Below are positions 44,401 through 50,400 of a stretch of 64,000 nucleotides of DNA, in pieces. Each line of letters starts with the position of its first letter. Within the stretch, counting starts at the first letter, position 1. Origin of the DNA: Lineus longissimus. Lineage: Eukaryota; Nemertea; Pilidiophora; Heteronemertea; Lineidae. Both the position numbers and the translations under genes were made by a program. The DNA lies in contig NC_088315.1 in NCBI RefSeq assembly GCF_910592395.1, positions 18,769,808 to 18,833,807 on the forward strand, written 5' to 3'. The notes under the pieces are model-generated. The model saw nothing but the letters and a program-made list of their open reading frames with translations, did no database searches and was not told where the DNA came from.

Positions 44401-47400
44401 GGCAAGCGGTAGGCCTACTTCCAGTTGTTGGTTTGGGGTGGTTTCATTAGTGTGCATGAGGGAACATTGGCAAGCGGTAGGCCTACTTCCAGTTGTTGGT
44501 TTGGGGTGGTTTCATTAGTGTGCATGAGGGAACATTGGCAAGCGGTAAGCCTACTTCCAGTTGTTGGTTTGGGGTGGTTTCATTAGTGTGCATGAGTGAA
44601 CATTGGCAAGCGGTAGGCCTACTTCCAGTTGTTGGTTTGGGGTGGTTTCATTAGTGTGCATGAGGGAACATTGGCAAGCGGTAGGCCTACTTCCAGTGGT
44701 TGGTTTGGGGTGGTTTCATTAATGTGCATGAGCCAACATTGGCAAGCGGTAGGCCTACTTCCAGTTGTTGGTTTGGGGTGGTTTCATTAGTGTGCATGAG
44801 GGAACATTGGCAAGCGGTAAGCCTACTTCCAGTTGTTGGTTTGGGGTGGTTTCATTAGTGTGCATGAGGGAACATTGGCAAGCGGTAGGCCTACTTCCAG
44901 TTGTTGGTTTGGGGTGGTTTCATTAGTGTGCATTAGTGAACATTGGCAAGCGGTAGGCCCACTTCCAGTTGTTGGTTTGGGGTGGTTTCATTTATGAGCA
45001 TGAGGGAACATTGGCAAGCGGTTGGCCTACTTCCAGTTGTTGGTTTGGGGTGGTTTCATTAGTGTGCATGAGGGAACATTGGCAAGCGGTAAGCCTACTT
45101 CCAGTTGTTGGTTTGGGGTGGTTTCATTAGTGTGCATTAGTGAACATTGGCAAGCGGTAGGCCCACTTCCAGTTGTTGGTTTGGGGTGGTTTCATTTATG
45201 AGCATGAGCAAACATTGGCAAGCCGTAGGCCTACTTCCAGTTGTTGGTTTGGGGTGGTTTCATTAGTGTGCATGAGGGAACATTGGCAAGCGGTTGGCCT
45301 ACTTCCAGTTGTTGGTTTGGGGTGGTTTCATTAGTGTGCATGAGGGAACATTGGCAAGCGGTAAGCCTACTTCCAGTTGTTGGTTTGGGGTGGTTTCATT
45401 AGTGTGCATGAGGGAACATTGGCAAGCGGTGGGCCTACTTCCAGTTGTTGGTTTGGGGTGGTTTCATTAGTGTGCATTAGTGAACATTGGCAAGCAGTAG
45501 GCCCACTTCCAGTTGTTGGTTTGGGGTGGTTTCATTTATGAGCATGAGCAAACATTGGCAAGCGGTAGGCCTACTTCCAGTTGTTGGTTTGGGGTGGTTT
45601 CATTAGTGTGCATGAGGGAACATTGGCAAGCGGTAAGCCTACTTCCAGTTGTTGGTTTGGGGTGGTTTCATTAGTGTGCATGAGGGAACATTGGCAAGCG
45701 GTGGGCCTACTTCCAGTTGTTGGTTTGGGGTGGTTTCATTAGTGTGCATTAGTGAACATTGGCAAGCGGTAGGCCCACTTCCAGTTGTTGGTTTGGGGTG
45801 GTTTCATTTATGAGCATGAGCAAACATTGGCAAGCGGTAGGCCTACTTCCAGTTGTTGGTTTGGGGTGGTTTCATTAGTGTGCATGAGGGAACATTGGCA
45901 AGCAGTTGGCCTACTTCCAGTTGTTGGTTTGGGGTGGTTTCATCAGTGTGCATGAGTGAATATTGGCATGCGGTAGGCCTACTTCCAGTTGTTGGTTTGG
46001 GGTGGTTTCATATGTGTGCATGAGGGAACATTGGCATGCGGTAGGCCTACTTCCAGTTGTTGGTTTGGGGTGGTTTCATCAGTGTGCATGAGGGAACATT
46101 GGCATGCGGTAGGCCTACTTCCAGTTGTTGGTTTGGGGTGGTTTCATCAGTGTGCATGAGGGAACATTGGCAAGCGGTAGGCCCACTTCCAGTTGTTGGT
46201 TTGGGGTGGTTTCATTTATGAGCATGAGCAAACATTGGCAAGCGGTAGGCCTACTTCCAGTTGTTGGTTTGGGGTGGTTTCATTTATGAGCATGAGCAAA
46301 CATTGGCATGCGGTAGGCCTACTTCCAGTTGTTGGTTTGGGGTGGTTTCATTAGTGTGCATGAGCGAACATTGGCAAGCGGTAGGCCTACTTCCAGTTGT
46401 TGGTTTGGGGTGGTTTCATCAGTGTGCATGAGTGAACATTGGCAAGCGGTAGGCCTACTTCCAGTTGTTGGTTTGGGGGGGGTTTCATTAGTGTGCATGA
46501 GCAAACATTGGCAAGCGGTAGGCCTACTTCCAGTTGTTGGTTTGGGGTGGTTTCATTAGTGTGCATGAGCGAACATCGGCAATCTTTTCCAAAGTAATCT
46601 TCTTAATTTGTTCAGTTGGTTCCGCTTGATAAAGCCCAACTACCTACTGGCAAGATGTATGACAGTGTCGTTGGCACAGACACTGCCGCTCGTCGTTGAA
46701 CTCAGAACTTTATCGATTACGTCTCTGTTCTTAGAGAACAAGTACAATGAGAGAGGTTTTTCCCTGCAAGAAATCACCATGTTCGTGTTAATCAGAGATT
46801 AGACAGGTTTCATGAAGAAAGTAAAAGGCAATCAGAGAAGATAATGGTTTTTTTAGAAAATATGAGTAACATACTTCCTACGTGGACAACAGTATCATTG
46901 GCAAGGACGCTGCCACTGGTTGTTGCGTCGAGAACTTTATCGACCACACTTCGCGATTTTGAAAACAAGTACATGGCCAATGGCTTCTCTCTGTGTAGTC
47001 AAATAGATTGAAGAGTTGAAAAAGACATTTGCTTATCCAAGGGGTTAATTCCGGTCACCCATACCCACCCCCATGTCAGAAAATTCTAAGAAACGGATGT
47101 TGAAATTTCAACATTTTGGAAACTATTATCAATTTGAACATGAAATTCTGTAAAGTGAAAATTGGGGGTCCTAGCTGTGCTTCCTCATTGAATTTGCCTC
47201 TGAACTGAAAGAGATTGTGCCAGGTCTGATTTCCAGCCCCAAGACCTGAACCATGGATCTGACTGATGCCCAGACCATGCTCTTGAGGTGGAGGATGACC
47301 TTGAGCTACAGCCCCATTCCTCAATTTCAAGACGTAGAATCAAGAAGTGATGTTTGCAATGCTGAGAAGAAGTCGAAAATGAATTCTGTCCACTTCACGA

Positions 47401-50400
47401 CGGGAAATTCCAAGGCGTGTCTCTCTATAGCACAGTGCTGTAGCATCATTTGTATGGTCCCATTCTGGGATGTAGGCCTACGGTCCCATTCCGGGATGTA
47501 TGGTCCCATTCATTCTGGGATGTAGGCCTACGGTCCCATTCCAGAATGTATGGTCCCATTCATTCTGGGATGTAGGCCTACGGTCCCATTCCGGGATGAA
47601 TGGTCCCATTCTGGGATGTAGGCCTACGGTCACATTCCGGGATGTATGGTCCCATTCTGGGCTGTAGGCCTACGGTCCCATTCCAGAATGTATGGTCCCA
47701 TTCATTCTGGGATGTAGGCCTACGGTCCCATTCCAGAATGTATGGTCCCATTCATTCTGGGATGTAGGCCTATGGTCCCATTCCAGAATGTATGGTCCCA
47801 TTCCTGGAGCTCTTCACAGTTCAAAGGAATAAAACTTCCATTATTTTTGTTTTCGTTAGCAGACGACAGAAAATGCCTCGCTTTGACTGAAAATGACTCA
47901 TTTTCATGGGATGTATGGTCCCATACCCCCCCCCCCCCCAACCCCTAAAAGTAGGAACATGAATGGTTAGGTAGAGCTTTCTTTTGTGCAACAGTGACCC
48001 GAAAGCTTGTTGACCGTTAGATGTGGAGAACATGAGAGTGCTTCGCAAGTTTTTTGGAGCATGCAAATACAAATTGAAACATACGGCCCCCATGCACTAT
48101 CCAATCATTTGCCAAAAAGGCTCCACTGATCGTCTGGCTCAAAAACTTATCCGCCACACCTCGTTGTTTTGAAAATACATACAACACCAATGGGTGCTCC
48201 CTGAAATCGACATATGTTGGAAAAGCTGAAACGTTATCTCATAGTCGATAGATATATAAAACTAAGAACTGTGATGCCCTACATGCAGGGAGAGTTGCCC
48301 TGGGCCATCAAGCAAGCAGTTGCCCCACAGGCAAAACTAGTAGCAGCTGAACTTTTATAGCAGCCTTGTAAAGCAATACAGCCAAAGGGCCTGCCCAAAT
48401 AAGACATTTAAAGCAAGCAGGACTACAAAGTAAAATGACCTATTCTGTGCATTTCGTAATGAAAATCGAAATTTCCATTTGAACTCAAATTTTTTTTGGC
48501 AGGAGTCCACCAATCATACTCGTATAGGGGTTGTCGGTCTGGGCATGACTGTTTTGAAATACTGTAGAACCTCTCTACTAAGGACACCCTCGGGACTGAC
48601 AAGTGCTGTTCTTAAAAGAGAGGTGTCCTGATTAGAGAGGTCAAATTGAGTGGAAACAACCAATTTTGGAACAAAAGTAGTGTTCTTTATAGAGAGGTTG
48701 TCCTTGATATCGAGGTGTCCGTTAAGGGAGGTTCGAAGTCCACATTCGCATGATATGGTTGTTTAGAGCATCCTAAAATTAATCTAAAAAAATGACAGAA
48801 TAAGTGATTTTACTGTCTTGATCTTTGAAGTTCACTGCCAATATTGATAAAGCAACTATAATTTATGAACTGAAATCAAACACATACAGGCCCCGTGCAT
48901 CAAAGTGTCATTAGCGAGAAATGCTCCACTGTTTGTCCGATGTGCAACTTTATCGATTACATCTCGACTTTTTGAGAAAACATATGTTGCTAAGGGCAGT
49001 TCTCTGAAAGAGAATTTGATTACACAATATGAAAGTGTTTCAAATAGAAGATTTGAATAGCAGGTACCATATCAACTTATTATTGATAAATTATCAAAAA
49101 TGGGCTATTTGAGTAAGTTTTGAAGGAAAAATTTCCGTGTAGTAAAATTAAACTCAATTTTCTCAATCAAGAAATAAAGAATTTTCATATTTTTTTGTAG
49201 TTTTGTACTTCTTCAACTAAAATTCTTTTAATTTTCTTCAGAAATTTTCGCGATTCCAAAAAAGGCGAGCGAATTAAGCGCTTTATTCTGGTAAATCTGG
49301 TTCTCCTACAAACACACTCATTGTAACCTAGGTGTTTCAGATTGTCAAACCAAGCAAATCTGACGAGCATAATCTTTTACCTGGCATTTATTATATCTAT
49401 GGCCTCATCAACATTTTCCACCGGCACTATTGGAAGGATCGGGCCAAAAATCTAAAAAAAACAAGAGAAAAATTAAAATATCTCAATGATAATTTTAACT
49501 ACAGTAAAACCTCTCTCTTGAGGTCACCCTCTAGACTGACCTGTGCAGTCCTTTATAGAGAGGTGTCCTGATAAGAGAGGCCAAATTGAATGTGAACAAC
49601 CAATTTGGGACCAAAACTAGTGTCCTTAATAGAGAGGTGTCTGCTAACGGAGGTTCTAATGTAACTGTATATCTCTCTTTACAACAGAGATGATGGAAGT
49701 TCATATTAAGTACCTATTCATGAAATTGTAATTTTCAAATTCAATTAAAATTTTCAAATTTTTTTCAATTTTTTTAAAAACTGAACGTGAAGACCTTTAA
49801 ATGCAAATCTACTGAGTCTTTGATAAAGAAGAAAAGAAAACTCACTTCCTCTTGCATGATGGGGTCGGTCAATTTGACATTTGTCAGAACGGTTGGTTCG
49901 ATGTATTTCTCCCCGGCGTCAGTGCGGCCGCCAATGGCAAGTTCTCCTCCGCCATTCATCAGTTTCTCCACGCGCCTGTGAACGAGATAAGAACCAAGTC
50001 AACTAATATGTAAAGAGCAAGCTCTAGTGAACTCACACAACTGTATGTCCTAGCAGACGATTTTTAGATACATGATGTCCCACACCCGCACTTCAGTAAC
50101 GCCGGTGTGAATAAATCTACTTACGTGAATGGTCAATGGCTCATGACGTCATGAAATAATTGCGTCACGAGGAAGGAAACAATGGGATTCACATCCGACG
50201 TTGTAACTGTGGGTGCGGTGCGTCATGAATGCAGGATCGGCCAACGCGCGGCCCATATAGAATGCGACAAAACTGTACCGGAACCACCGGAACCAGAATT
50301 GTCATGGGTCTGCACAAATTTTTTCAGATTCGATGGACATGATGGATATATGAATTTTGTTTACACTTTACATACAGTGTATACATACGTAACCATTACA

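Follow-up and report, generated by a model that had tools for sequence, protein, structure and literature searches.

We analyzed a window of 64,000 nucleotides (the whole stretch of DNA presented here, from contig NC_088315.1 of the heteronemertean worm Lineus longissimus), whose minus strand carries one gene of the aldehyde dehydrogenase family ALDH3. This gene has 12 exons outside a cluster and one exon position in four versions, called here 10a, 10b, 10c and 10d. We consider it likely that the four versions are mutually exclusive exons of a single ALDH3 gene, derived from an old tandem exon duplication, and that they swap a segment of the substrate pocket. Mutually exclusive use, which an earlier note on this DNA had proposed, is what the anatomy best supports; copy 10d is present in a public protein, and for 10a, 10b and 10c we infer the use in RNA.

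Each of the four exons lies where the earlier note had placed it; each is exactly 116 bases long, is preceded by AG and followed by GT, and is open in the frame of exon 9. The junctions 49381 (exon 9) and 42247 (exon 11) also lie where it had placed them, and PL-x-x-Y-x-FSK, SG and AND are indeed common to all four copies. Exon 9 ends within an Arg codon that the first base of every copy closes, and every copy hands one base to exon 11, whose opening bases TG complete Leu after 10a and 10b and Met after 10c and 10d. Between exons 9 and 11, the successive introns measure 377, 687, 1094, 111 and 4400 bases. Pairwise, the copies are identical at 59 to 74 of 116 bases and at 22 to 28 of 39 residues (56–72%); all four share 19 of the 39 residues, and 20 differ in at least one copy. 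Every pair of copies matches (expectation value, E, from 7e-17 to 3e-11), and within the window human fatty aldehyde dehydrogenase aligns by tblastn with all four copies, each in the expected position (E 1.5e-7 to 2e-5).

To describe the frame logic, all 16 subsets of 10a–10d were joined to the rest of the gene. The four single-copy joins were open to the end, and all 12 others, with 0, 2, 3 or 4 copies, reached a stop after 362 to 428 residues of joined reading. The four-copy join is back in frame at exon 11 by its length, but the stop comes earlier. The rule of exactly one copy, put forward in the earlier note for zero or two copies, is thus stricter than claimed, since the three- and four-copy joins fail too. 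Because any transcript with another number of copies would stop early, the frame alone is able to enforce the use of exactly one, provided that faulty RNA is removed. Published criteria for predicting mutually exclusive exons are similar length, a shared frame, matching splice sites and homology (PMC3228551). The copies 10a–10d are adjacent internal exons, homologous and similar in length, in the same phase, with matching splice sites and no stop. The disruption of the frame by zero or several copies is a feature not required of every mutually exclusive cluster. Length and openness alone are not telling, because a fifth open stretch of 116 bases between AG and GT (47980-47865, minus strand) lies inside the cluster and looks unrelated to the copies. 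A peptide search of the window for a fifth or relic copy gave one weak match in the cluster (E 0.12, 47913-47848), which was rejected. Likewise, when the four copies were aligned to seven nearby introns, no score went beyond the best of 60 shuffles.

Exon coordinates and splice borders were set from homology to human fatty aldehyde dehydrogenase (tblastn) and from the reading frame; the first and last coding exons were located from the ends of P0001, the best public protein match ('aldehyde dehydrogenase, dimeric NADP-preferring-like isoform X2 [Lineus longissimus]'). When 10d is used, the 13-exon join and P0001 are identical letter for letter through all 495 residues, and the other 119 of the 120 listed protein matches show at most 57% identity. 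The cluster of P0001 holds 3 sequences on 1 contig, and several isoforms may already be in the RefSeq gene model. As for membership in ALDH3, P0001 matches Pfam Aldedh with E 4.3e-84, and the catalytic Cys (GQTC), EIFGP and PFGGVG are all present in the translation. The class 3 enzymes 4qgk, 1ad3 and 3sza top the 249 solved-structure matches, the closest being fatty aldehyde dehydrogenase (ALDH3A2, 4qgk, E 8.1e-162; ALDH3A1, 3sza, E 4.4e-155). Coding exons 2 to 12 other than exon 10 give one strong match each in the window. Among the best 25 of 41 NCBIfam families, every one scored below its cut-off, and a phage search with 10d returned no match.

The exchanged segment lies between the EIFGP-like motif and PFGGVG, as had been noted earlier: IFGP of the former is in exon 9 and PFGGVG in exon 11. 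Its placement in the pocket comes from sequence alignment to solved ALDH3 chains together with published contacts. The alignment to 3sza and 4qgk is ungapped across the segment, which comprises 39 residues, from REKPL to two residues beyond a conserved His, and corresponds to ALDH3A1 residues 357–395, numbered from Cys243 (PMC8160307). Docked ligands contact Ile391 and Ile394 of ALDH3A1, contacts that come from docking and not from a crystal (PMC9007462). The role in the substrate tunnel suggested in the earlier note therefore stands in so far as the segment holds the residues aligned with these two ligand-contacting positions, on the basis of alignment and docking. In the order a/b/c/d, the copies carry L/I/V/V at the position of Ile391, M/V/V/I at Val392, G/G/V/L at Ile394 (small in 10a and 10b, larger in 10c and 10d) and A/G/G/A at Thr395, and His393 is kept in all four. 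Across 104 aligned homologues, the position of Ile394 counts as one of the more variable in this region (entropy 2.78), and that of Asn388 is invariant in all 104. In addition, human ALDH3A1 and fatty aldehyde dehydrogenase differ at 394, with Ile and Phe, respectively. Since this position is variable both among homologues and between the two human enzymes, exon 10 varies where relatives vary between genes. The copies also vary at positions without a known pocket-lining role.

In the mechanism that we propose, exon 9 would be spliced to one of 10a–10d and then to exon 11. Transcripts with any other number of copies would meet an early stop and would presumably be destroyed or encode a dead enzyme. 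The segment would form one portion of the aldehyde pocket's wall; at the Ile394 position, 10a and 10b would contribute Gly, 10c Val and 10d Leu. Four products would then be expected, with a common fold, cofactor and catalytic Cys and with differing aldehyde preference, tissue or stage; the differing preference is expected because the exchanged segment would form pocket wall with different residues.

Regarding the age of the copies, synonymous divergence (pS) between them is 0.72–1.04, so that synonymous sites are at or near saturation, and nonsynonymous divergence (dN) is 0.21–0.41. Selection was analyzed with a purpose-written codon model on 38 codons and three topologies, of which (a,b),(c,d) was the best. 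This model does not take indels, stop codons or splice borders into account; in these respects every copy is intact. A single ratio of nonsynonymous to synonymous rates (omega) was estimated at 0.13, and setting omega to 1 throughout lost 24 units of log-likelihood (twice the difference 48.0, p 4e-12). The earlier note had named relaxed evolution as a sign against the use of all four copies: neutrality was rejected for all branches jointly and for the 10d branch on its own (p 2.8e-4), and was left standing for 10a, 10b and 10c singly. Because only 38 codons with saturated silent sites are available, clearing these three copies one by one is beyond the power of the test. The omega estimate for the 10b branch rose up to 7, a value close to the bound. 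Judged from sequence, the cluster is old and real, with protein-level constraint on the set as a whole.

Concerning the origin of the copies, the 60-base flanks were ordinary in 11 of 12 comparisons (at least 61 of 2000 shuffles equalled the real pair). The remaining comparison, between the bases before 10a and 10b (49065-49006 and 48262-48203, minus strand), gave 31 of 60 bases alike without gaps, a value that 1 of 2000 shuffles attained; with gaps allowed, the 105 bases before 10a and 10b gave no confirmation (57 of 300 shuffles were as good). This likeness perhaps goes back to the a–b duplication or reflects a common control element. The tree built from 60 segments of forty residues each (the four copies and 56 of 188 homologues) gave no resolution: 10c grouped with 10d with support 84, and neither a clade of all four copies (p 0.57) nor the grouping of 10a with 10b (p 0.63) was rejected. 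The 188 homologues comprise 104 of the 119 non-self listed matches and 84 sequences aligned from the best 120 of 2091 profile matches. That profile was made from the C-terminal portions of the four forms, and no orthologous alternative exon was detected among these best 120 of 2091 matches, 84 of them aligned.

We searched the genome (391 Mb, 30 contigs) exon by exon with three protein queries, the window's own form, P0024 and P0112 (mink ALDH3A2). No second ALDH3 locus was detected, although a diverged one could escape an exon-by-exon search. Outside the window, scattered matches of 32–40% identity were present on contigs C16, C5 and C20. Matches of the general aldehyde dehydrogenase model overlap the ones on C16 and C20 and the one at C5:2818554, all of which look like other aldehyde dehydrogenase families; the match at C5:296221 has 39% identity (E 4.8e-4). 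We tentatively suggest, as a possibility short of an even chance, that in an animal that has just one ALDH3 gene a four-way pocket cassette replaces the separate ALDH3 genes of vertebrates and covers four aldehyde ranges, by tissue or condition.

Weak splice sites are usual in regulated exons. The acceptors of the four copies have 12, 11, 11 and 10 pyrimidines in 18 bases, compared to 11–17 in the ten constitutive internal exons (p 0.015), and a G stands before the donor in 0 of 4 copies compared to 7 of 10 constitutive internal exons (p 0.07). These weaker sites therefore give mild support for regulated exons. Exclusivity may be enforced by decay of faulty RNA, by mixing of U2 and U12 sites or by docking sites (PMC6071210). 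All borders are GT-AG and the minor class was unseen (by eye, unscored). A steric block is unlikely for the pairs a–b and b–c, with introns of 687 and 1094 bases, and possible for c–d, with an intron of 111 bases. Tandem arrays with units of 68 and 50 bases flank exons 10c and 10d; the pairing energy of unit against unit was -20.6 for a shuffled mean of -18.8, and that of the whole arrays was -219.5, a figure without a control comparison, which gives no support for array pairing. In C. elegans, mutually exclusive exons, as defined by the source, are reported to be 100% triplet, i.e. frame-preserving (PMC13247117). The exchange of one 116-base copy for another likewise keeps the frame.

As a separate observation, both arrays carry the palindrome GTAGGCCTAC, with 28 exact copies in the window for 0.03 expected.

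Several results weigh against four exchangeable exons. Neutrality of the own branch stands for 10a (p 0.47), 10b (p 0.56) and 10c (p 0.80). Compared to one omega, a neutral 10b alone or 10b with 10c fits 1.6 log-likelihood units better, and making 10a, 10b and 10c neutral together costs 3.0 units. A Lys that 181 of 188 homologues carry is missing from both 10a and 10b. Exon 10b has two further residues found in 0 of 188, a count that also holds for its Trp at the position of ALDH3A1 Val390 (P0001 position 392), and 10a has two further ones found in 1 of 188; such residues can mean specialisation or decay, and either fits. No orthologous exon was seen elsewhere, a search with the 10b region giving no match, though the named matches included no gene of another nemertean for comparison. 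Finally, scanning for docking and selector RNA pairing in two layouts gave nothing that beats the best of 20 shuffles, with little power from one species. In a rival explanation, one or two copies are used (10d, perhaps 10c) and the rest, above all 10a and 10b, are fading leftovers of the tandem exon duplication. Such leftovers would agree with 10d being the sole copy seen in a public protein, with 171 of 188 homologue segments scoring best against 10c or 10d, the copies closest to ordinary ALDH3, and with the branch tests just given. We nevertheless find this explanation unlikely, since 10a, 10b and 10c all retain the exact length, splice borders and open frame. By a rough estimate, neutral evolution along a branch as long as that fitted for 10a or 10b (about 0.6 changes per codon) should also have brought indels or the loss of a splice site. 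Moreover, neutrality of 10a and 10b together costs 3.3 log-likelihood units, and that of 10c and 10d 15.1, compared to one omega.

The early stop in all 12 non-single joins would also suit a role in controlling the amount of enzyme, in which the copies are used, none or two of them switch the enzyme off through an early stop, and the protein differences are minor. We judge this to be very improbable, since skipping one ordinary 116-base exon would suffice for it, and four copies with differing pocket-aligned residues would be unneeded. No point was found in favor of an assembly artefact, or of pieces of several ALDH3 genes lying side by side. The copies differ at 42–57 of 116 bases, the exons outside the cluster from 2 to 12 occur once each as strong matches, and the genome search detected no second ALDH3 locus; we give this explanation practically no credence. 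One gene with four exchangeable copies of exon 10 remains our preferred reading; the exons and tandem arrays are listed in Table 1.

Table 1. Position of the ALDH3 exons and of the tandem arrays in the window.
Feature	Position	Strand	Basis
ALDH3 exon 1 (MSNYNS)	55192..55209	-	N-terminus of P0001 matched; GT after
ALDH3 exon 2	54176..54319	-	homology, splice sites, join identical to P0001
ALDH3 exon 3	53525..53756	-	homology, splice sites, join identical to P0001
ALDH3 exon 4	53068..53153	-	homology, splice sites, join identical to P0001
ALDH3 exon 5	52297..52460	-	homology, splice sites, join identical to P0001
ALDH3 exon 6, catalytic Cys (GQTC)	51436..51562	-	homology, splice sites, join identical to P0001
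ALDH3 exon 7	50818..50921	-	homology, splice sites, join identical to P0001
ALDH3 exon 8	49846..49975	-	homology, splice sites, join identical to P0001
ALDH3 exon 9, IFGP of the EIFGP motif; last two bases begin Arg codon	49381..49451	-	homology, splice sites, join identical to P0001
Alternative exon 10a, 116 bases	48888..49003	-	AG/GT, open, homologous
Alternative exon 10b, 116 bases	48085..48200	-	AG/GT, open, homologous
Alternative exon 10c, 116 bases	46875..46990	-	AG/GT, open, homologous
Alternative exon 10d, 116 bases; copy in P0001 (isoform X2)	46648..46763	-	AG/GT, open, homologous, join identical to P0001
ALDH3 exon 11 (PFGGVG)	42118..42247	-	splice sites, frame, join identical to P0001
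ALDH3 exon 12, hydrophobic C-terminal part	41449..41584	-	homology, join identical to P0001
ALDH3 exon 13 (VLNLGQYFP, stop)	41093..41122	-	C-terminus of P0001 matched
68-base tandem array, 36 copies, in intron 10d–11, 65 bases past exon 10d	44130..46582	n/a	
50-base tandem array, 7 copies, in intron 10b–10c	47461..47803	n/a	

Outside the exons, ACCTCTCTAT(A)AGGACA-like words recur in the introns at 49680-49520, 48750-48580, 50550-50661 and 53232-53345 (by eye and from the tandem repeat table), and this stretch is probably an interspersed repeat. Two open frames, 58478-59920 (minus strand, 480 amino acids) and 59112-59879 (plus strand, 255 amino acids), overlap a 33-base array (59083-59604, 15 copies), and neither has a Pfam match.

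In a limited literature search, with subscription journals mostly outside it, we found no description of an ALDH3 or other aldehyde dehydrogenase with mutually exclusive or duplicated exons, and no such ALDH3 array in the literature searched on nemertean mutually exclusive exons. The word 'aldehyde' is missing from the main texts of PMC3228551, PMC7954323 and PMC3923563. Alternative forms of ALDH3 do occur in the clam Ruditapes philippinarum, where isoforms P0011 (X2) and P0019 (X6) are identical up to ESVN and then have different C-terminal tails; these forms vary elsewhere, at the tail.

Among known systems, insect Dscam resembles the present cluster in that one exon is chosen from a tandem series of homologous copies, and differs by the 48 variants of its exon 6 and by an RNA docking site (PMC6071210); no such site was found in the ALDH3 cluster in the two layouts scanned. 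Within the same family, human ALDH3A1 and ALDH3A2 (3sza and 4qgk) differ at the Ile394 position, a variation that lies between genes there and within one gene here. Closer in principle is coq-2 of helminths, annelids and molluscs (COQ-2a/COQ-2e), in which mutually exclusive exons of the same length remodel the part of a metabolic enzyme that makes up its substrate tunnel, residues near the active site differ between the exons, and the choice alters the product (PMC7434440). In contrast to the cluster described here, coq-2 has two exons instead of four, encodes a prenyltransferase and is backed by RNA and genetics (PMC7434440). Mammalian ACSL6 and ACSL1 also exchange a short gate motif of a lipid enzyme, with a Phe or Tyr gate, through mutually exclusive exons; here again there are two exons, the enzyme is an acyl-CoA synthetase, and the effect of the gate is proposed by the authors and unproven (PMC1543647). 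If the four ALDH3 forms are made and differ in their kinetics, a detoxifying enzyme would widen its substrate range by duplication of an exon rather than of a gene. The exchange, limited to one stretch of the pocket wall, would then amount to a natural four-way swap experiment on the aldehyde preference of ALDH3. Overall, the cluster is best read as an exon-swap principle already known from coq-2 and ACSL1/6, in an enzyme family that is new for it as far as the limited literature search can tell, with four options and with some of the differences at pocket-aligned residues.

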